Shown one piece after another: positions 6,104-64,000 of a DNA stretch of 64,000 nt. The first letter of the stretch is position 1. Each line of letters begins with the position of its first letter. The notes beneath the pieces are model-generated. The model did not search any database. It was given only the letters and a program-made list of their open reading frames with translations, and was not told the DNA's origin. Source of the DNA: Candidatus Melainabacteria bacterium RIFCSPHIGHO2_02_FULL_34_12. Lineage in GTDB: Bacteria > Cyanobacteriota > Vampirovibrionia > 2-02-FULL-35-15. Location of the stretch: positions 53,619 through 117,618 of the forward strand of contig MFRM01000019.1 of the NCBI GenBank assembly GCA_001784555.1, given 5' to 3'. Made by a program: the position numbers and the translations under genes.

Positions 6104-6140
6104 GCAGGGGGCGTTGTATACAATGCTCCCTGCTGCTTTT
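6104..6140 (+). terminator. Rho-independent terminator between convergent hup and rsmI
   Basis: GCAGGGgGC..GCtCCCTGC hairpin followed by TGCTTTTA. Confidence 0.7.
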
Positions 6141-7056
6141 ATTTAATGTATTTATCTAGATATAAATCATACAGTCTTTTAGCAGATAAATTATATTCTT
6201 TAGCAAAAGTTTTTGATGTCTCTTTCAATGAATGTCCTTCTGTAATGTGATTTTTCATATGAGAAAGAACATGCTCCATGTTCAAACTCTCTGCCTGTTT
6301 ATTTATATGTAATATGACTACTATTTCACCTTTAAAAGTTTTATTTTCAAGTAACCAGATTAAATCAGGAATTTTTCCTTTCCAAAGTTCTTCATATATC
6401 TTTGAGATCTCTCTTGCAATAAATATCTCACTATCAGGATATATATTATTAATCTCTGCTATATATTTTTTTATATCGTGAGGAGCAATATAAATAACTA
6501 TATTTTTTGATCTGTTTTTTAAAGAGCAAAGTGTATCTTTTCTCTTACTTTTATTTTCCGGCAAAAAACCAATAAATAAAAATTCACTATTTTCACTTTC
6601 AAAGGGGCATACACTTAAAGCTGCAAGTAAAGCACTCGGTCCTGGTACAGGAATTACTTTTATATTCTGATCCATTGCAGCTGCTATAAGAGTTTTACCT
6701 GGATCAGAAATAAGTGGTGTACCTGCATCAGAAACAAGCGCTATATCTTTCCCGGAAACAAGAAGAGAAATCGCTTCACCAGCTGATTTATGTTCATTAT
6801 ATTTATGATGACTTTTAATTTTTGTTTTAATTGCATACTTATTTAAAAGTCTTGAGGTTATTCTTTTATCTTCACATAAAATTAAATCTACCTTTTTTAA
6901 GGTCTCTAAAGCTCTAAGTGTAATATCAGTTAAATTACCTATCGGTGTAGCAACTACATAAAGAGCCGGCGATGGGGCGAACCGGCGGTGGGGCGAATTC
7001 CTCTCTAAAGGTACATTCGCCGACTCGCCCATTCGCCCATCCACCGGTTCTTTCAT
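6139..7056 (-). CDS. rsmI: 16S rRNA (cytidine(1402)-2'-O)-methyltransferase, with repeat-encoded N-terminal extension
   Basis: LYVVATPIGNLTDITLRALETLKKVDLILCEDKR; SDAGTPLISDPG; VPGPSALLAAL. First ~30 aa derive from the 8-bp repeat array. Confidence 0.93.
   Translation of the reverse strand: MKEPVDGRMGESANVPLERNSPHRRFAPSPALYVVATPIGNLTDITLRALETLKKVDLILCEDKRITSRLLNKYAIKTKIKSHHKYNEHKSAGEAISLLVSGKDIALVSDAGTPLISDPGKTLIAAAMDQNIKVIPVPGPSALLAALSVCPFESENSEFLFIGFLPENKSKRKDTLCSLKNRSKNIVIYIAPHDIKKYIAEINNIYPDSEIFIAREISKIYEELWKGKIPDLIWLLENKTFKGEIVVILHINKQAESLNMEHVLSHMKNHITEGHSLKETSKTFAKEYNLSAKRLYDLYLDKYIK
6965..7050. repeat. 8-bp-period GC-rich array, two inverted halves
   Basis: cggcgatg|gggcgaac|cggcggtg|gggcgaat|..|attcgccg|actcgccc|attcgccc|atccaccg, read directly. 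Confidence 0.85.
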
Positions 7057-8640: not shown

Positions 8641-8776
8641 AATCTTTTCTTATATTTAAATTGACAATATCACTGAAAGTACGTTTTTGGAAGGATTTTT
8701 CAATGATTTTAATGTCTATGTCTTTATTTGTAATTTTTGAAATAGCTTCAGCTCGATTGATTTTCAGATCATCAGT
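8624..8776 (-). pseudogene. Possible C-terminal remnant of an ABC substrate-binding protein
   Basis: KINRAEAISKITNKDIDIKIIEKSFQKRTFSDIVNLNIRKDFEEIR resembles SsuA/TauA-like C-termini and sits directly upstream of the permease without an N-terminal portion. Confidence 0.45.
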
Positions 8777-9629
8777 CCTTATCTGGAGCAGGAACAGGTT
8801 TAGCTTCATCTGGAGCAGGAACAGGTTTAGCTTCATCTGGAGCAGGAACAGGTTTAGCTTCAGAAATTGCAGCCATAACAGCATTAAAAATAATCAGATA
8901 ACTACGTACTAAATGAGAATGACCCTGTTCATGGAGTTCGTTAAAAGGCAGGTTATATTTTTCATTATCTTTCTCCCAGCGCCTATTTCGTATCATGATG
9001 TTATGAAGTTGTTCACAAAACCATAAAGGTGTATTTTCATCACGTAGGGTAACAACATTACACGTTGCTTGGCCACTAGTAGTAAATTGAACTGGTGCTT
9101 TATCACAACTCTCATTTAATTTTTTCAGTACTGCTTTAGCATCCTCAGTAGTTCCATCCCAATCAAGCTCAACATTTGGATGTCCTGGTCGAAATCTTCC
9201 TGCCCATGCTATTCTTAACCACTGCTCAATATCTGCAAGACAATTCTGCTCTTGCAATCCAGAAGTATCATGATGCTGATTTAATAGATTAATTGATGCA
9301 GTAGCATTCAGCAGAACTATAGCGACGAAATCTATTACCTCTTGCCAAGTACCTGGATCAAAGATATCTTCAGAACGCTTTTCTACTGGTGGTGAAAAGA
9401 AATCCCAAACTTGAAACTCCCGGATTTTTGGATATAGATTTCTTAAATGCTGAGCAAAATCAGCAGGAGCATTAAATTGCTCTTTTTCCCTCTCATCACA
9501 TATTGTCTGAGCCTCATCACAAACAGGCCCAACTAGGTGATCATACTCAGGCTCCTTTGTACGACGGAGTACCCTACAGCTAGCAACAAGAGATTGTTTT
9601 ATCTCATCAATTTTAATAATAGTAGACAT
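8772..9629 (-). CDS. Uncharacterised protein (285 aa) with C-terminal EAKPVPAPD tandem repeat
   Basis: Long ORF; no family recognised. Confidence 0.7.
   Translation of the reverse strand: MSTIIKIDEIKQSLVASCRVLRRTKEPEYDHLVGPVCDEAQTICDEREKEQFNAPADFAQHLRNLYPKIREFQVWDFFSPPVEKRSEDIFDPGTWQEVIDFVAIVLLNATASINLLNQHHDTSGLQEQNCLADIEQWLRIAWAGRFRPGHPNVELDWDGTTEDAKAVLKKLNESCDKAPVQFTTSGQATCNVVTLRDENTPLWFCEQLHNIMIRNRRWEKDNEKYNLPFNELHEQGHSHLVRSYLIIFNAVMAAISEAKPVPAPDEAKPVPAPDEAKPVPAPDKD
8782..8862. repeat. 27-bp tandem repeat, 3 identical copies
   Basis: tctggagcaggaacaggtttagcttca at 8782, 8809 and 8836. Confidence 0.97.
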
Positions 9630-49541: not shown

Positions 49542-51956
49542 ATGACTCAAAATAAAACTTTAAATAATTTGCTTTCCAATAATAACATCACCAGTGGCTT
49601 AAATGAAAATCAAATTGCAGCCGTTACTTTTGGTGACGGACCACTACTTGTCATTGCCGGTGCAGGGTCAGGAAAAACAAGGGTCTTAACACATAGAATT
49701 GCAAATCTGGTTTCCAATAAATTTATGCCAGAAAGCATTCTAGCAGTAACATTTACTAACAAAGCTGCTTCAGAAATGAAAGGAAGACTTTTTGCCCTTT
49801 TACCAGAAGAAACTGCATCATCAATCTGGATAGGCACTTTTCATAATATTTGCGGGAGAATATTGCGTCATGACATACAAAAGCTAGTCTTAAGCACCGG
49901 TGAAAAATGGACAAATAATTTTGTAATCTACGATGAGTCCGACAGTACAAACTTAGTGAAGCAATGCATTCAGGCACTGGAGTTAGATCAAAAAATTTAC
50001 CAGCCAAAAAACATAAAGTCTTTTATAAGTAATTTAAAATCACAAGGCTATGAAGCAAAAACTTTTGGAGATATTGCAAAAAACCACCGCGAGGTAAAAA
50101 TATCAGAAGTATTTGATCTCTACCAGAAAGAACTATCTAAAAACAACGCTCTTGATTTTGATGATTTACTTTTATTTACTGTAAAACTTCTTGAACAAAA
50201 TGAGCAGACAAGAAATTATTACCATAAAAGATTTCGTCAGGTCCTGGTAGATGAATTTCAGGACACAAATCTCATCCAGTATGAGCTGGTTAGATTAATA
50301 TCAGAAGGAAAAACAAAAGAAGAACGTTTAAATATAGACAGAAAAGATCTATGGAAAGACAGAGGAATTACTGTAGTAGGTGATGTAGATCAAAGTATTT
50401 ATTCCTGGAGAGGTGCTGATTTTAGAATAATTCTGGGTTTTCAAAATGATTTTCCAGAAAATACCATGATAAAACTTGAGCATAATTACCGCTCTACTGA
50501 AACTATTTTAAGAGCTGCCGACTCCATCATAAAAAACAATAAAGAAAGAATTGAAAAAGTACTTTTACCCACGAAAGAGAAAGGCGAAAAAATTATTTGT
50601 TTTGAAGCAGAAGATGAAATTGAAGAATCACAATATGTTGCAAAAGAAGTTTTAAGGCTGCTTAAAGCTGGCTATAAATACAAAGACTTTGGAGTGCTCT
50701 ACAGAACAAATGCCCAAAGCCGCGCCATCGAAGAAGCTCTTATTAAAAGAAATATTCCTTATGAAATTGTAGGCGGGTTTAGATTTTATGAAAGAAAAGA
50801 AATAAAAGACATAATTGCTTATCTTAAAACTATTTATAATCCAAGCGATTCTATTTCTTTAAAACGAATAATAAATGTTCCAAGACGCGGACTAGGAGCA
50901 AGCACACTAATTAAAATAGAAGAGTTTGCAAATCAAAGTAATTTTTCACTTTATAAAACATTGCTTGAAGTAAAAGATGTTCCTGGGCTTAGTGAAAGAA
51001 CTGTAGTCTCAGTTCAGAATTTTGTAGAGCTTATGGAATATTTAAGAAAGGCTTCAAGATCTCTTTCTATAAGCGATTTGTTGGATCAGATTCTTAAAAA
51101 ATCCGGATACCGGGATGAGCTGGAAGATGAAGGAACACTTGACTCAGAAGAAAGGCTGGCAAATATTCAGGAGCTTTTTTCTGTAGCAAATGAATTTGAG
51201 GCTTCAGCATCATTAAATAATGAAGACAGTGTAGGGCAAGATCTGCCCCTACTGGGTAATTTTTTAACTCAGATTTCCCTTTACACTGACTTAGACAATT
51301 TAAAATTAACTACAAATAAAATGACTCTGATGACATTACATCTGGCTAAGGGACTGGAGTTTCCAATAGTTTTTATTTGCGGGCTGGAAGAAGGTATTTT
51401 ACCTCATGTCAGATCCATTGATTCGCAGGACCACAGCGAGCTCGAAGAAGAAAGAAGACTGATGTATGTAGGTGTCACTCGTGCCAAAGAAAAACTTTAT
51501 TTTACTTATGCCAGAGAACGAAGACTTTTTGGTTCAAGAGAATTTGCACAGGTAAGTCGGTTTATTGAAGAAGTTACAAAGGAATTATTAAGCGGGTTTT
51601 ACGGCGGACTGGATAAAAAAATTAAAAACAACAAAATGCATATTTCGAAAAGAAACATTACGAGGAAATATTCTGAATACGAGATAGATGAATTGCTTGC
51701 AAAAGAAGGTGTAACAAATGTTACTAAAATAAGAAAGGTAGAAACCTCAGAATCTGAAACTCAATCCCCATCGGTTGATCAATCATGGGACTATTGTCCC
51801 TTTAGTACGGGTGATAAAGTACAGCATGAAAAATTTGGTCTAGGGCTTATTGAACAAATTTTTGGGGAAGGCAGTAAATTACTTGTAAATGTTAATTTTG
51901 AAAAATACGGGAAAAGATTATTAGATCCAAGATATGCAAAGCTGGTAAAGTTATAA
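49542..51956 (+). CDS. pcrA: UvrD/PcrA-type DNA helicase
   Basis: LNENQIAAVTFGDGPLLVIAGAGSGKTRVLTHRIA; VDEFQDTN; GDVDQSIYSWRGAD; start reassigned to 49542. Confidence 0.96.
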   Translation: MTQNKTLNNLLSNNNITSGLNENQIAAVTFGDGPLLVIAGAGSGKTRVLTHRIANLVSNKFMPESILAVTFTNKAASEMKGRLFALLPEETASSIWIGTFHNICGRILRHDIQKLVLSTGEKWTNNFVIYDESDSTNLVKQCIQALELDQKIYQPKNIKSFISNLKSQGYEAKTFGDIAKNHREVKISEVFDLYQKELSKNNALDFDDLLLFTVKLLEQNEQTRNYYHKRFRQVLVDEFQDTNLIQYELVRLISEGKTKEERLNIDRKDLWKDRGITVVGDVDQSIYSWRGADFRIILGFQNDFPENTMIKLEHNYRSTETILRAADSIIKNNKERIEKVLLPTKEKGEKIICFEAEDEIEESQYVAKEVLRLLKAGYKYKDFGVLYRTNAQSRAIEEALIKRNIPYEIVGGFRFYERKEIKDIIAYLKTIYNPSDSISLKRIINVPRRGLGASTLIKIEEFANQSNFSLYKTLLEVKDVPGLSERTVVSVQNFVELMEYLRKASRSLSISDLLDQILKKSGYRDELEDEGTLDSEERLANIQELFSVANEFEASASLNNEDSVGQDLPLLGNFLTQISLYTDLDNLKLTTNKMTLMTLHLAKGLEFPIVFICGLEEGILPHVRSIDSQDHSELEEERRLMYVGVTRAKEKLYFTYARERRLFGSREFAQVSRFIEEVTKELLSGFYGGLDKKIKNNKMHISKRNITRKYSEYEIDELLAKEGVTNVTKIRKVETSESETQSPSVDQSWDYCPFSTGDKVQHEKFGLGLIEQIFGEGSKLLVNVNFEKYGKRLLDPRYAKLVKL
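51231..51252. repeat. GTAGGGGC-type small palindrome inside pcrA
   Basis: GTAGGGCAAGATCTGCCCCTAC, in frame. Confidence 0.55.
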
Positions 51957-51968
51957 CTGTATTCAATT

Positions 51969-52004
51969 CGCCAGCCCTATCGCCCCACCGCCGGCTCGTT
52001 TTCT
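51969..52004. repeat. Short 8-bp-type repeat overlapping the plsC 3' end
   Basis: cgccagcc-ctat-cgccccac-cgccggct-cgttttct. Confidence 0.6.
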
Positions 52005-56911: not shown

Positions 56912-57012
56912 TGTCATTGCGAGCTGAACGAAGTGAAGCGTGGCAATCCCGAATGTTTCACATAAATTAGATCAAGATTGCTTCGTCAGGCTTTGCCTTC
57001 CTCGCAATGACA
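56912..57012. repeat. Palindromic element TGTCATTGCGAG..CTCGCAATGACA overlapping the folC 3' end
   Basis: 12-bp perfect termini; interior gcaatccc..gattgcttcgtc. Confidence 0.88.
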
Positions 57013-58184
57013 TTTAACGCTTCCCCCACTAAATACAGCGAACCGGTAATCACAATTAGGTCATTAGACATTTGTTTTGCTGCTTGAATAGCTTCTTCTA
57101 AATTAGTACATAAAATTGCTTTTGAATTGATTTTCTTAAGATACTCGGCTAGTATTTCTTTTTTTGTTGCTCTTTCTGATTTTGGCTCCGTGCAAACTAC
57201 AGTACTGCCTTCTGGAATTAGATTCTTTAAAAAACTTTCATAATCCTTATCAAGCAATCCAACTATATAAATAATTTGTTTATCAGGAAACTTCTCAAAT
57301 AACAATTTCTTCAATTCAGTTGCAGCAGCAGGATTATGCGCTCCATCTATAAGTATTTTTTCGTCTTTAAAGTACTGAAATCTGCCTGGAAACTGCAATG
57401 ACTCTAAAAAGTTTTTGCCGCCATAATCACTACATTTAAGGTTTAATTTTTCCGAGATAATTTGCCAGGTTTTTAAGGCTATTTCAATATTTTTATTTTG
57501 ATATGTTTCATATTGTTCGGTATCGACATGAATCAACTTTGTATTTAATTCTTTTGCTTTTTCTTTAATTACACTTAATGCAGGTTCATCTGCTCCGGTA
57601 ATAACAATGTTGTTTTCTTTTATTATGCCTGCTTTTTCACAAGCTATTTTTTCTAACGTATCTCCCAGATATTGCATGTGATCAAATGAGACATTTGTGA
57701 TTACAGAACAAAGTATATTTTCAGAAGAGACAATATTCGTAGCATCAAGTTTTCCGCCCATGCCTACTTCAATACATGCTATGTCTACATTTTCTTTTTC
57801 AAACAAATGAAAAGCAATCACTGTATAAATTTCAAATTCTGTAAGTTTGTCATTGGCTTCTGATTCAAAGTCTTTTATTTTTCCAAGAACTTCATTAGAT
57901 ATCTTTTCCAGATAACAAATTTCAAGTGGCTTTTCATTTATTACAAATCTCTCATTGAAATTAACCAAATGCGGGCTGATATATCTTCCTACCTTGAAGT
58001 CAGTAAAATGAGAAAGCAAGTTAGAGAGATAAAAGGTAACAGAACCTTTACCGTTTGTCCCGCCAACAATTATTGATTTATATTTTTCCTGAGGATTACC
58101 TAGATAATTCAAGCATGATTTAACTCTTCTGAGATCAAATTTGATTCCAAGATTAGTTCTTGAATTTATAAATGCTTGAAGCAC
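56967..58184 (-). CDS. folC: Folylpolyglutamate/dihydrofolate synthase
   Basis: VGGTNGKGSVTFYLSNLL; GMGGKLDATNIV; LIDGAHNPAA. Confidence 0.94.
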   Translation of the reverse strand: MLQAFINSRTNLGIKFDLRRVKSCLNYLGNPQEKYKSIIVGGTNGKGSVTFYLSNLLSHFTDFKVGRYISPHLVNFNERFVINEKPLEICYLEKISNEVLGKIKDFESEANDKLTEFEIYTVIAFHLFEKENVDIACIEVGMGGKLDATNIVSSENILCSVITNVSFDHMQYLGDTLEKIACEKAGIIKENNIVITGADEPALSVIKEKAKELNTKLIHVDTEQYETYQNKNIEIALKTWQIISEKLNLKCSDYGGKNFLESLQFPGRFQYFKDEKILIDGAHNPAAATELKKLLFEKFPDKQIIYIVGLLDKDYESFLKNLIPEGSTVVCTEPKSERATKKEILAEYLKKINSKAILCTNLEEAIQAAKQMSNDLIVITGSLYLVGEALNVIARKAKPDEAILI

Positions 58185-58187
58185 AAC

Positions 58188-59876
58188 TTAATCACGCTCT
58201 TCAGGAGAATCTTTCGGCGTAAGAGTGAATACCCCTGAAACATCATCAGCTTTTACGCTGTATTTTGCTTCCTGAGAATAACTTGAAAGCTCAACTTCAT
58301 TTTCGTCAGTTGATTCTTCTTCATATTCTTCATTTTCATTTTCGTCAAATTCGTTTTCAAACTCATTTCCTGTTTCATTATTAAGTCCTTCTTCAGTAGT
58401 AGGACTTGTTCCTTCTGAACCATTTCGAATTACTTCTTCTTCAGTTATTGGTTCCGAAATTTCTCTTTCTACCGGTGCACTTGAATCACTATCCTGCTCC
58501 TGCCTATCTTGCTGAGGACCTTCTTGTCTTCGCGGATCGTGCCTTCTTTGCATTCTGTTTCTGTTATTATTTCTTTGAGCTCTCCAGTCGCCTCTGTCAC
58601 CGCGCTCTCCTCTATCCCCTCTGTCACCGCGATCACCTCTGTAACCTTCCTGACCCTCTCTTTGTTTTCTAATTTCACCGCTTAAACCAATTTCAAAGAC
58701 AATTCCAGAACCGTGACAGCTGGAACAATGATGCCCAAAAATTTCCATTAAACTTTGACCTTGTCTTCGTCTGGTAAGTTCAACCAATCCTAGATCACTT
58801 AGCTGCCCAATTTGTGGTTTTGCTCTGTCTGACATAAGAGCGTTCTCAAATGCTTCAAGAACATTGATTTGATCTCTTCTGTCATCCATATCAATAAAGT
58901 CAACGACTATAACACCACCAATATTTCTCAGCTTCAGCTGCCTTCCGATTTCATGTGCTGCTTCCAGATTAGTTTTTAAAACTGTTTCACGAAGCGTTCT
59001 TGAGCTGGTAAATCTTCCTGAGTTTACATCTACAACTGTCAATGCTTCTGTAGTCTGGATAAATAAATATCCGCCACTTGGAAGTTCAACTTTTGTCTGC
59101 AGTGCAGTTAAAATTTCTTTTTCAACTCCACGTGAAGAAAGTATATTTCCTTCTTTATGAAGAGTTATTTCTACATCTCTGCCAGTCCAGTTTTTTAAGA
59201 TCTGCTCTGCTTTTGCCTGACCGCTTGGAGTATCTGATACTACTTCTCCGATTTCTGCAGTATAAGCATCTCGAACTACTCTGTAAATAAAGTCCTGATC
59301 CCTGAATACAAGACCAGGATACTTATGATTCTCATGTTTATCTGCAATTTCTTTCCAGAGATCCCAGAGCATCTTAAAATCTTCTTCCAGATCATATTCA
59401 TCTTTTCCTTCTGCTTCAGTCCTTACTACTATGCCAACACCAGGTGGCTTAAGCAAAGAAACCATGGCTTTAAGTCTATTTCTTTCCTGATAATCTACAA
59501 TTTTTCTGCTAACTGAAACATTTGTATTTTCAGTAGTTAAAACTAAAAATCTTCCAGGCATGCTTATGGCTGTGTTAACCCTAGGTCCTTTGTTGCTTGT
59601 AGGCTCTTTCACTATTTGTACAAGAAGTTTTTGATTTGGTTGTACTCTGTCATTTAGACTTCCATGTCCTGGTATATCACTGGCGTGTAAAAACCCCATT
59701 CTGTTATTTCCAAGATTCACGAAGACTGCATCAATACTTGGCATAATATTTTCAACCCTAGCGGTATAAATATCTCCAAGCAACAGATCTCCTCTATGTA
59801 TAAAAAATTCAATTGCTTTATCATCTTCCATGATTGCAGCTATTTTGTCTCTTTCTGATATTATTAACGATTTCAT
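58188..59876 (-). CDS. Ribonuclease E/G with RGD-rich and acidic C-terminal tail
   Basis: LLGDIYTARVENIMPSIDAVFVNLGNNRMGFLH; VDVNSGRF; VVDFIDM; CSSCHGSG. Confidence 0.95.
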   Translation of the reverse strand: MKSLIISERDKIAAIMEDDKAIEFFIHRGDLLLGDIYTARVENIMPSIDAVFVNLGNNRMGFLHASDIPGHGSLNDRVQPNQKLLVQIVKEPTSNKGPRVNTAISMPGRFLVLTTENTNVSVSRKIVDYQERNRLKAMVSLLKPPGVGIVVRTEAEGKDEYDLEEDFKMLWDLWKEIADKHENHKYPGLVFRDQDFIYRVVRDAYTAEIGEVVSDTPSGQAKAEQILKNWTGRDVEITLHKEGNILSSRGVEKEILTALQTKVELPSGGYLFIQTTEALTVVDVNSGRFTSSRTLRETVLKTNLEAAHEIGRQLKLRNIGGVIVVDFIDMDDRRDQINVLEAFENALMSDRAKPQIGQLSDLGLVELTRRRQGQSLMEIFGHHCSSCHGSGIVFEIGLSGEIRKQREGQEGYRGDRGDRGDRGERGDRGDWRAQRNNNRNRMQRRHDPRRQEGPQQDRQEQDSDSSAPVEREISEPITEEEVIRNGSEGTSPTTEEGLNNETGNEFENEFDENENEEYEEESTDENEVELSSYSQEAKYSVKADDVSGVFTLTPKDSPEERD

Positions 59877-59976
59877 TTTTTTCCTTCCTTTTAATAAAAA
59901 GTTCCTGCAAAAAATTAATTTTGCCTGAATCTTTTATTTTTTATTTTTTTAAACCTAAAATTTGTTCTTAACTCCA

Positions 59977-62900
59977 TTAAATCTGAATAATGTTTTCTTT
60001 TTTTATTTTCCAGTCAATTTGCCAGTTTTTTTGAAAATCATTTGCTTTAAGTCCTTTTGGGATAATTTGATCTAAAACCATTTCTGCTCTAGTACTTCCT
60101 GACAGAATTAATTCCAGCTCCAGCGGTAACTCATTTGTAATTTTTATCCCTTCAACTTGAGATCTAATATCTAATTGTTTCTCAGACTTATTTTTATTGT
60201 CTTTATTATTTTTTAAAACCTTTAGAATTAAAAACTTTTGAGCAAGAAAACTTTCAATTAAACTTCTTAACTCACATATATATTTTTCCCATATCTCAGG
60301 CTTATAAGTCAAAATTCTATACAAAAATTTTATATTGTTTACATCACCCAATTTTTGGTTAAAATCAACTGTTTTAGCACTTATAAGCTGGAATTCGGGC
60401 GGCAATTGCTGATTTAACCTAATTTGTAAGTCAGGATCCTCAACATAATCAGCCAGCTCAAGATGAAGCAATTCACAATCACTTTCATAATAAATAGGTA
60501 ATGGCAAAAGCCATTGCATTTTGGGCCGGGGGTTAAAACCCTCTGTAAAAGAAAATGGAATTCCTGCCCTTCTCATTGCTCTTTCAAAAAGCCTACTAAC
60601 ATCAAGATGAGAAATAAATCTTAAATCAGCTGATTTAGTATGAATGATTTCAATTTTTTGAACGGATTTAGTAGGTAAACTAATTTTAGGTTTCGCCGAT
60701 ACGCCGGTTCGCCGATACGCCGGTTCGCCGTTTCGTCCACTCGCCGATTCGCCCATTCGTCCATTCGCCGACTCGCCGACTCGCCGTTTCGCCGTTTCGT
60801 CTCCTAAATCTATTTCTTTCACGAATTTATTATTCTTCGACTTATCCTCAGTAACCAAATTTAATACACCCAGTTCAAAACAAACTCCACAGGCATGGCA
60901 TGTATTTTCTGTGCATGGTGACGTTTCAGTTACACTTAAAGCCTTTTTCATTTCTTCTATTAAAAATTTATTCAAAAGTCCGGTGTCAATAATATCCCAG
61001 GAATTAATTGATCCGATTTCTCTGTGTTTTGTAGCTTCAAAGTCCAGATCCAGATTAATTTCTTTACCTGCTTCCTTCCAGAGAGAAATATCCAGACATT
61101 CATCCCATGCATCAAACTTTGCACCTTTTTTAAATGCCGAATAAATTAATTCTGAAATTCGACGATCGCCCCTGCTCATTACAGCTTCAAGCAGTGCAAT
61201 TTTTGGATCTGTACAATTTAATTTCACCGTGCGAAGTTTATATTCTCTGATTTTTTGTTTCAGATAAATTATTTTTTGTTCAAATTCACTTGTCTTATTC
61301 TGACTAAACCATTGAAAAGGAGTAAAAGCTTTTGGAACAAAAGTAGAAATAGTACATGTAATATCAAGAGGTTTTTTGTTTTTTATTCTTGAAAGATCAT
61401 TTGCCCATTTTAAAAGATTTATAATTCCATCCAGATCAGCAGTAGTTTCTGTAGGCAGTCCAATCATAAAATAAAGTTTTACATGCCGAAAACTGCCGTC
61501 ATAAACACTTTCAATGGCTCGTTTAATATCTTTTTCTTTAAGTCCTTTGTTAATTACTTCTCTTAGCCTTTCTGTTCCAGCCTCGGGAGCAAGAGTAATG
61601 CCTGATTTTCTTACAGTATTTAATTCATTTGCAATTTCCATGTTAAATCTGTCTGCTCTTTGCGACGGCATGGAAAGTGAAATCCCTTTTTTAGAATGAG
61701 CAGCATTTAAACTAACTGCAGCTTCATGAAGTCTGGTGTAATCGCTGGCAGAAAGTGACAACAATGAATATTCATCGTAACCGGTATTTTTTAAAGCTTC
61801 TGTTGAAAGTTTTATCAATTCATCCGGGGTTCTTTCTCTGACTGGAAGATAAACATATCCAGGCTGACAGAATCTGCAACCCCTGTCACAACCTCTTCTT
61901 ATTTCCATTACCTGTCTGTCCTGAACAGATGCCAGATAAGGTATTGGACCAGAAGTAGGCTGATTACGATCACTTAAATTTACAACTCTCTTAGTGATTT
62001 TTTCAGGAATAGTCATTGCGAGGAGCGGAGTGACGAAGCAGTCTCGATCTTTTTCAGGTGAGTCGATCGGGATTGCTTCGCCGGAGCCTGCCCCGAGCGA
62101 AGCGTGGGGGACTCGCAATGACAAATCAATTGGCTTTGGTAAATAGTTTTCATTTGGATCCGGATTATAAAACTTCGGCACATAAACTCCTGGAATCTGA
62201 GCAAGTTTTAATAATAAATCTTGCTTACTTTGGACAGACATACAATCTGCTCCTACATTGGGGCAAACACGCTGGTATGCCCCTACAGATTTTATTAAAT
62301 CTAATATTTCAATAATTACTTCTTCACCATCCCCGATAATAAAAAAATCAATGAAATCAGCCATTGGTTCAGGATTAAAAGCAGCAGGACCACCAGCAAA
62401 AACCAGAGGAAAAATATCTTTTCTTTCTGCAGATAAAACCTCTAGCTTTGAAAGCTCAAGTATATTTAAAACATTTGTATAAGAAAGTTCATAAGAAAGT
62501 GAAAATCCTAAAAGATCAAAATCATTAAGTGGCTTAAAGCTTTCCCAACCCCACAGAGAAATATTTTCTTTTCTTAAAAGCGCTTCCATATCCTGCATTG
62601 GAGCATATGCTCTGTCACAAAGATAATCACTGTGACTGTTAATGATTTGGTATAAAATCTTTGTACCAAAATTTGCCATTCCAAGTTCATAGAGATCGGG
62701 GTAAATTAATGCAGTTTTTACTTTTGCATCTGACCATCTTTTTTTCGCCGTTTCGCCGATACGCCGATACTCCGATACGTTCTCTTGTTCTCTCGCCGAT
62801 ACGCCCACTCGCCGTCTCGCCGTTACGTTTTCTACCAAGTGTCCCCACTCAATTCCAAGATACTGACCTGGTTTTTGAACTTTAAGCAAAAGATTGTTAA

Positions 62901-62985
62901 CAAGGTTTAAATAAGTATCTGTACCTTCATTCTTATTATTGTTAATTTTCAATAGCGTGTCTTGCATCTTTTTTACCGCCGGCAT
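59977..62985 (-). CDS. TIGR03960-like radical SAM protein fused to TIGR03936/DUF2344 domain, with repeat-encoded insertions
   Basis: EIRRGCDRGCRFCQPGYVYLPVRER; LSLSASDYTRL; C-term ISHLDVSRLFERAMRRAGIPFSFTEGFNPRPKMQWLLPLP. Confidence 0.92.
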   Translation of the reverse strand: MPAVKKMQDTLLKINNNKNEGTDTYLNLVNNLLLKVQKPGQYLGIEWGHLVENVTARRRVGVSAREQENVSEYRRIGETAKKRWSDAKVKTALIYPDLYELGMANFGTKILYQIINSHSDYLCDRAYAPMQDMEALLRKENISLWGWESFKPLNDFDLLGFSLSYELSYTNVLNILELSKLEVLSAERKDIFPLVFAGGPAAFNPEPMADFIDFFIIGDGEEVIIEILDLIKSVGAYQRVCPNVGADCMSVQSKQDLLLKLAQIPGVYVPKFYNPDPNENYLPKPIDLSLRVPHASLGAGSGEAIPIDSPEKDRDCFVTPLLAMTIPEKITKRVVNLSDRNQPTSGPIPYLASVQDRQVMEIRRGCDRGCRFCQPGYVYLPVRERTPDELIKLSTEALKNTGYDEYSLLSLSASDYTRLHEAAVSLNAAHSKKGISLSMPSQRADRFNMEIANELNTVRKSGITLAPEAGTERLREVINKGLKEKDIKRAIESVYDGSFRHVKLYFMIGLPTETTADLDGIINLLKWANDLSRIKNKKPLDITCTISTFVPKAFTPFQWFSQNKTSEFEQKIIYLKQKIREYKLRTVKLNCTDPKIALLEAVMSRGDRRISELIYSAFKKGAKFDAWDECLDISLWKEAGKEINLDLDFEATKHREIGSINSWDIIDTGLLNKFLIEEMKKALSVTETSPCTENTCHACGVCFELGVLNLVTEDKSKNNKFVKEIDLGDETAKRRVGESANGRMGESASGRNGEPAYRRTGVSAKPKISLPTKSVQKIEIIHTKSADLRFISHLDVSRLFERAMRRAGIPFSFTEGFNPRPKMQWLLPLPIYYESDCELLHLELADYVEDPDLQIRLNQQLPPEFQLISAKTVDFNQKLGDVNNIKFLYRILTYKPEIWEKYICELRSLIESFLAQKFLILKVLKNNKDNKNKSEKQLDIRSQVEGIKITNELPLELELILSGSTRAEMVLDQIIPKGLKANDFQKNWQIDWKIKKENIIQI
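60694..60805. repeat. 8-bp tandem array (about 14 units)
   Basis: cgccgata cgccggtt cgccgata cgccggtt cgccgttt cgtccact cgccgatt cgcccatt cgtccatt cgccgact cgccgact cgccgttt cgccgttt cgtctcct. Confidence 0.95.
62012..62122. repeat. Palindromic element GTCATTGCGAG..CTCGCAATGAC inside the radical SAM ORF
   Basis: 11-bp perfect termini; 111 bp (37 codons), in frame. Confidence 0.93.
62252..62287. repeat. GTAGGGGC-type palindrome inside the radical SAM ORF
   Basis: CCTACATTGGGGCAAACACGCTGGTATGCCCCTACA. Confidence 0.75.
62746..62833. repeat. 8-bp tandem array (11 units)
   Basis: cgccgttt cgccgata cgccgata ctccgata cgttctct tgttctct cgccgata cgcccact cgccgtct cgccgtta cgttttct. Confidence 0.95.
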
Positions 62986-63063
62986 TCTTCATAATAATTC
63001 AGAATGCCGGCTTTGCATTTTGAATTATGCTCAACTATACTGGTTCAGTTATAATATTAACTT

Positions 63064-63735
63064 ATGAAGGAACAGTTCATTAGCGATGATTTTAAGTTTC
63101 CGGTAACTCTGGCAATTACCGGTGCCAGTGGCACAGTATACGGACTAAGAGTGCTTCAGTTTTTACTTGAAAATAATTACAGAGTTGAATTTGTAATTTC
63201 AGAAAGTGCATCAAAAGTAGCCTTGGATGAAATTGGTTTAATTCTTTCATTAAGCCCTGCAATTTTAAAAGAACAAGTATTATCCTATTTAGAATCCAAA
63301 GGCAAGAAAAATATAAATAAGAACTTATTAAATGTCTGGGAATTTAATGATATTTCTGCATCTATTTCAAGCGGTTCTTATCGTACAAGCGGAATGATGA
63401 TTATTCCTGCAAGCATGGGCACAATTGGTGCAATTGCAAGTGGCACCTCTGATAATCTCATAACCAGAGCCGCAGATGTGTGTTTAAAAGAAAGAAGAAA
63501 ACTTGTAGTTGTCCCCCGTGAAATGCCTTTGAACACCATTCATCTTGAGAATCTTCTAAAGCTAAGTAAAATTGGCACAATTATTGCTCCTGCCTGCCCA
63601 GGTTTTTATCACAGACCTGAAAATCTTGATGAAGTAATTGATTTTGTTGCAGGTAAGATATTAGATTTATTTGGATTTGATCATAATCTTTTCAAAAGAT
63701 GGAAAGTAGACTCTAATTTACTTGCAGTTAATTAG
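63064..63735 (+). CDS. ubiX: Flavin prenyltransferase UbiX
   Basis: LAITGASGTVYGLRVLQFLL; GSYRTSGMMIIPASMGT; CPGFYHRPE. Confidence 0.94.
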   Translation: MKEQFISDDFKFPVTLAITGASGTVYGLRVLQFLLENNYRVEFVISESASKVALDEIGLILSLSPAILKEQVLSYLESKGKKNINKNLLNVWEFNDISASISSGSYRTSGMMIIPASMGTIGAIASGTSDNLITRAADVCLKERRKLVVVPREMPLNTIHLENLLKLSKIGTIIAPACPGFYHRPENLDEVIDFVAGKILDLFGFDHNLFKRWKVDSNLLAVN

Positions 63736-63785
63736 TCTAATTTTTATAACTTAATAAAACCAATTACTAATAGTATTAAAATAAT

Positions 63786-63992
63786 ATGAAAAGTAATTTT
63801 ATGAACGATTTTTCATTTGTAGACGAAGAACTTGAACTTCTTTCTGAAGCCGGGCTAAGAAGGGAATTAAAAACAGTTCTTACTGCAGGTGGGCCATGGA
63901 TAGAAATTGCAGGAAATAAAAGAGTTCTTCAATTTGCATCAAATAATTACCTCGGTCTTTCAAATCATCCGGAAATAATAAATGCAAATTGA
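63786..63992 (+). pseudogene. N-terminus of a BioF/Kbl-type aminotransferase, apparently frameshifted at the window edge
   Basis: LQFASNNYLGLSNHPEIINA then stop; ATT GAA GAA CTC (IEEL) continues in another frame. Confidence 0.6.
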
Positions 63993-64000
63993 AGAACTCT

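Follow-up and report, generated by a model that had tools for sequence, protein, structure and literature searches.

Short repeats of three families inserted in frame in a radical SAM gene of an uncultured Melainabacterium

Rickettsia palindromic elements (RPEs) are mobile short repeats that lie in frame inside conserved protein genes (PMC2229807), and, by the account of that review, guanylate kinase remains an active enzyme with its insert in place. REPs of the GTAG and CGTC kinds are likewise known in frame in genes, with double insertions in O. terrae uvrA and R. conorii uvrB and with different REPs at about one site in recB of two Xanthomonas species (PMC3733652). The Y1 transposases of TnpA-REP subclass 2.4, which are abundant in Cyanobacteria and Bacteroidetes, carry in-frame REPs, some of them 'double foot', in the transposase gene itself between HuH and Y (PMC6006769). 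Heptameric and other 6–9 nt simple repeats of bacteria form short-unit tandem arrays that are dispersed through genomes (PMC4692102).

The window, the whole stretch of 64,000 nucleotides analysed here, belongs to the genome of an uncultured Melainabacterium (G000; 2.11 Mb in 26 contigs). It contains a radical SAM gene in which repeats recalling several of these systems occur together.

The radical SAM gene and its four inserts

The gene and the repeats within it are as follows.

59977–62985, minus strand: TIGR03960 B12-binding radical SAM protein fused to TIGR03936/DUF2344, 1002 aa
62746–62833, minus strand: 8-bp array 1, in two sub-arrays, aa 51–80
62252–62287, minus strand: GTAG-type REP GTAGGGGCATACCAGCGTGTTTGCCCC, peptide VGAYQRVCPNVGAD, aa 233–245
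62012–62122, minus strand: paired CATTGCGAG element, a CGTC-like REP pair in inverted orientation, peptide SLRVPHASLGAGSGEAIPIDSPEKDRDCFVTPLLAMT, aa 288–325
60694–60805, minus strand: 8-bp array 2, about 14 units, mostly G[GA]CGNNNN, peptide DETAKRRVGESANGRMGESASGRNGEPAYRRTGVSAK, aa 727–764

An earlier, sequence-only reading had described this frame as open through four segments of three kinds, and so it is: from an ATG start it runs for 1002 codons without a stop, intact across all four inserts. A profile search placed the ORF above the curated cut-offs of both TIGR03960 (619.8 versus 462.3 bits) and TIGR03936 (128.7 versus 71.9 bits), with Radical_SAM_N2, Radical_SAM and DUF2344 domains. The gene is flanked by a Rne/Rng-type ribonuclease on one side and a UbiX-type flavin prenyltransferase on the other, and Rfam gave no match within window positions 58000–64000. 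A match to the protein is found in 52 of 60 relatives, the nearest named orthologues coming from 'Candidatus Melainabacteria' MAGs.

The two sub-arrays of array 1 consist of the units AACGTAAC-GGCGAGAC-GGCGAGTG-GGCGTATC... and AACGTATC-GGAGTATC-GGCGTATC-..., and were recovered in part by TRF (62746–62779, period 8). Array 2, which lies in the linker joining the radical SAM part to DUF2344, was recovered at 60692–60799 (period 8, 13.5 copies, score 111). The GTAG palindrome and the 111-bp element also lie where the sequence-only reading had put them; its insert peptides needed correction at two starts, that of array 1 beginning earlier (NVTARRRVGVSAREQENVSEYRRIGETAKK) and that of array 2 reading GDETAKRRV, not GETAKRRV.

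The element at 62252–62287 has GTAG beside a short stem-loop (GGGCA...TGCCC); the hairpin has mismatches and, folded by itself, does not reach significance (z −1.4), and the element was assigned by family membership, not by folding energy. The 111-bp element with four flanking bases on each side folds at −47.5 kcal/mol (z −4.5). Its termini are TGTC at one end and AGTC at the other (CGTC in the copy of the relative G042), the stem beside the terminus is an ATTGC/GCAAT pair only and CCA is absent; we name it CGTC-like only, because the continuous 8–9 bp stem and CCA tail of CGTC REPs are missing from the window copy. The likeness to RPEs proposed earlier, with several families stacking in one gene, holds as one of mechanism. 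The GTAG and CGTC-like kinds, however, fit the REP super-families better, and the palindromic label does not suit the 8-bp arrays, which are tandem repeats.

All six frames are open in array 2, as in 14 of 2000 shuffles; array 1 and the GTAG element each have five open frames of the six, and the 111-bp element has two. The CGTC-like element is read in each of its two open frames, one (VIARS...ARND) in MetH, with a degenerate form in HisH, and the other, on the opposite strand, in the TIGR03960 gene. Frame use thus follows openness, in keeping with selection that acts once a repeat has inserted, and not with an element designed for translation.

Lineage specificity was examined by aligning eight same-family proteins with complete frames (906–959 aa, 64–71% identity). 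The four segments lie in hypervariable linkers of this alignment, and the window's sequences are absent from all eight orthologues, as the sequence-only reading had expected of lineage-specific insertions. The relatives hold short unrelated linkers at the insert places, so the inserts replace as well as add; because of these linkers, and in genomes this distant, exact empty sites and target duplications are unreadable. As judged from the alignment, the four segments are lineage-specific insertions, clear at protein level and, like RPEs, in frame within a conserved protein.

The window protein was modelled by AlphaFold together with 20 orthologues (mean pLDDT 75.5, pTM 0.79). Stretches of the window protein with pLDDT below 50 (aa 1–20, 57–79, 99–103, 247–249, 293–320, 693–698, 729–766 and 928–933) fall mainly on the inserts (aa 51–80, 233–245, 288–325 and 727–764), which are placed in low-confidence loops, in keeping with the surface loops that had been anticipated. 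Low pLDDT is partly expected for lineage-specific sequence that lacks alignment depth, so that these values are consistent with disorder rather than proof of it.

The repeat families elsewhere in the genome

We built a repeat inventory of G000 from searches and fetched stretches. BLAST of the 111-bp element against G000 gave 36 matches, counting the element itself; the corresponding pattern GTCATTGCGAG...GAAGCAATC has 46 matches there and is present in 21 of 60 relatives, its reversed control giving none among the genomes listed. The GTAG pattern GTAGGGGCN{8,24}GCCCC (GTAGGGGC...GCCCC) gave 41 matches in G000, most places being counted on both strands, versus none for its reversed control, in line with the many dispersed copies per genome of GTAG REPs. 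With at most one mismatch allowed, the 8-bp pattern gave 127 matches in G000 versus none for the reversed control; under a stricter form of the pattern, G000 and G007 are the only ones of 60 genomes with matches. Copies of each of the three families are scattered throughout the genome, beyond chance. The single GTAGGGGC that lies within a UvrD-like gene at 51245 was taken as a chance octamer.

These counts bear on whether the inserts are an assembly artefact or chance low-complexity sequence. G000 is split into 26 contigs, its nearest named relatives are metagenome-assembled and tandem arrays can be misassembled from short reads, so that exact unit counts are provisional. The elements nevertheless appear again at dozens of places, frequently within conserved genes that are intact, and with no control matches, and the same kinds occur in independent genomes of relatives, leaving this explanation scarcely credible.

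Several other ORFs of the window touch repeats. A CATTGCGAG pair at 56914–57010 overlaps the 3' end of a folC-like ORF (56967–58184) and seemingly provides its final residues (NVIARKAKPDEAILI) and stop. An RsmI-like protein (6139–7056, minus strand) has an N-terminal extension of 8-bp units (6966–7040) outside its conserved domain, and the final residues of a PlsC-like acyltransferase ORF (NEPAVGR, 51977–51997) look 8-bp-repeat-derived (compare SEPAVGR in DnaX). In ORF 8772–9629, a 27-bp unit repeated perfectly three times (8781–8862) encodes EAKPVPAPD repeats at the C-terminus.

For inserts in core genes we counted elements that are spanned by an ORF and covered by its family profile. GTAG copies lie within conserved protein profiles at 10 of 20 sampled loci and 8-bp arrays at 7 of 18, the TIGR03960 gene being counted among the arrays. 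The hosts are:

GTAG elements: TldD/PmbA-like, DUF4127, ArgS, HemN, MqnA-like, NagB-like, Ffh, QueG and two Y1 transposases
8-bp arrays: arginase-like, dihydropteroate synthase, heptosyltransferase, aconitase, DnaX (two) and GlpK
CGTC-like pairs: MetH and HisH

In alignments to solved structures, the inserts of HisH and GlpK stand out as additional or unaligned residues flanked by well-aligned parts; the Ffh element lies in a loop four residues longer than that of its structural partner, and the ArgS element region aligns poorly. The two arrays of DnaX (L152:202–1962) have opposite orientation. RimO of G000 (L124:1474–3003) stacks three in-frame palindromes near its C-terminal end (GTAAGGGCGAGG..., GGAGACGCCC... 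and a CATTCCC REP pair), so that stacking is not unique to the TIGR03960 gene. In ORF L004:477–2351, a CGTC-like pair joins two CoA-transferase stretches, with a short 8-bp array near the end, and this ORF is possibly two genes fused by a repeat. The TIGR03960 gene is thus not exceptional: many core genes of G000 carry such inserts.

Four inserts within one gene might instead suggest that it is decaying, a pseudogene in the making that tolerates anything. Against this, stops and frameshifts are absent, the radical SAM CxxxCxxC and CTENxCHACGVC motifs are intact in the TIGR03960 alignment and more than 100 invariant columns are kept. The terminal branch of the gene is about equal to that of G001 (0.188 versus 0.168), its divergence by codon position (0.24/0.15/0.46) is much as between insert-free relatives, and Ffh, DnaX and other core genes carry the same kinds of insert. 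We regard decay as highly improbable.

G000 has five Y1 matches, the best scoring 64 bits versus the NCBIfam REP-transposase cut-off of 80 bits, and two of its Y1 genes have GTAGGGGC palindromes within the ORF. The intact Y1 genes of the family are:

G000:C12:3904–4338: Y1 transposase
G000:C3:79322–79771: Y1 transposase
11 further family genes (among L166–L181): Y1 transposases

Each of these 13 has a palindrome in frame between HUH and Tyr, the arrangement of TnpA-REP subclass 2.4, with GTAG or a close variant at its foot and a stem of at least 13 in 11 of the 13; shuffled Y1 genes contain 0.15–0.70 palindromes of stem at least 9 per gene. One REP subtype is shared by the G000:C12:3904–4338 transposase (VGADQRVCP) and the window gene (VGAYQRVCP). 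The in-ORF transposase REP was dropped as a novelty, since it is already described for subclass 2.4 (PMC6006769).

The same loops in related genomes

The loop that holds the GTAG element carries differing palindromes in four of nine family genomes: G000, G003 (GTAGGGGCTTGTTGCAACAAGCCCTTAC), G007 (GTAGGGGCGTACCAATGGTACGCCC) and G009 (AGAGACGCGATTAATCGCGTCTCA). Their offsets differ, and the frame of the GTAG motif in G003 and G007 is not that of the window. G006 lacks a palindrome in this loop though it is the sister of G009 (100% support). A scan of all orthologues for palindromes of stem at least 10 found 12 versus 4.8 expected, weak taken alone; the informative matches are three family palindromes in the GTAG loop, with stems of 10–13. 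In G007 the linker of array 2 contains a 7-bp array, in G042 two CGTCATTGCGAG elements in inverted orientation and in G046 a CATTCTGAG element; arrays built of different 8-bp or 7-bp units occupy other loops in G042, G037 and G018. Seven of the eight period-7/8 arrays found in orthologues (TRF score at least 40) fall inside the four linkers, a binomial p of about 3e-5 that assumes a 17% linker share and is post hoc, for a single linker set defined from the TIGR03960 gene itself.

Loops of other core proteins are shared in the same way. In one HisH loop, G000 and G005 have CGTC-like pairs whereas G003 has a GTAG-type palindrome; an Ffh loop holds palindromes in G000 and G001; and a GlpK loop has an 8-bp array in G000 versus a 7-bp array in G007. 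In G007 (L020, L209), 7-bp arrays stand in both the TIGR03960-gene and GlpK loops where G000 has 8-bp arrays.

The filling of the same loops in several genera could reflect an ancestral set of repeat-rich loops that was inherited while its sequences were turned over by gene conversion and slippage. This seems unlikely to us, given that one loop holds different families (8-bp, 7-bp, CGTC-like and CATTCTGAG), that offsets differ and frames are not all alike, and that empty relatives are nested among occupied ones, as with G006 next to G009. Deep nodes of the family tree are weak (21–51% support), and part of the shared occupancy could therefore be ancient. It is similarly improbable that the shared loops of core proteins (the TIGR03960 enzyme, HisH, Ffh and GlpK) are more than permissive, with several unrelated families of repeats being directed to them, or retained there by positive selection, across a bacterial class.

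That several inserts lie between domains and that the 111-bp element is a stable hairpin might also be taken to mean that the inserts are selected domains or regulators, such as mRNA hairpins by which translation is slowed between one domain and the next, or loops that serve interactions. Sequences that are unrelated across lineages, often absent and of low confidence in structure prediction make such a function very unlikely.

Origin of the inserts and comparison with known systems

We consider it highly probable that the inserts are parasitic repeats, filtered by selection and surviving in frame within dispensable loops. On this reading the four segments belong to three families of parasitic short repeats (GTAG REPs, paired CGTC-like REPs and 8-bp arrays), copies of which entered the gene independently, added loops predicted to be disordered and are presumably translated. 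GTAG REPs may be spread by G000's own Y1 (HUH) TnpA-REP-like transposases, and the CGTC-like pairs by another enzyme of TnpA-REP-like kind. The 8-bp arrays, for which no source was found, might conceivably grow from a short seed via slippage or recombination. Insertions would be frequent everywhere, with purifying selection sparing those that are intergenic, or that are open, a net multiple of three and within a dispensable loop. Because selection would spare insertions of the latter kind, a radical SAM enzyme with several long linkers would act as a sink for repeats.

A search for literature on Melainabacterial repeats or loop-specific intragenic REPs found nothing directly relevant. In-frame REPs and RPEs, two insertions per gene and one case of different REPs at nearly the same site are already known; as far as our searches reach, the three unrelated kinds in one gene, the octamer arrays and the parallel use of loops in four proteins are new. 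Short mobile repeats can thus strongly reshape core proteins beyond the intracellular Rickettsiales. The same protein loops with different repeats in related genera constitute a natural experiment, in which the neutrality of protein-coding repeats as passengers can be tested directly and which yields a map of insertion-tolerant loops in core proteins.

The dispersed short-unit arrays resemble those of PMC4692102, but here the unit is a degenerate octamer, often inside genes and restricted to G000 and G007 among the 60 genomes searched. The in-gene REP between HuH and Y is common to TnpA-REP subclass 2.4 and the present transposases, whereas the G000 copies score below the NCBIfam cut-off and their REP subtype also occurs in a housekeeping gene. 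The double insertions of PMC3733652 are REPs or REP dimers; here a GTAG element, a CGTC-like pair and 8-bp arrays share one gene, and loops are used repeatedly across genera in four genes. RPEs (PMC2229807) are likewise short repeats in frame within conserved protein genes, a likeness of mechanism; in contrast to them, several unrelated families, tandem arrays included, meet here in a single Melainabacterium gene, and the same loops are struck in parallel in related genera.
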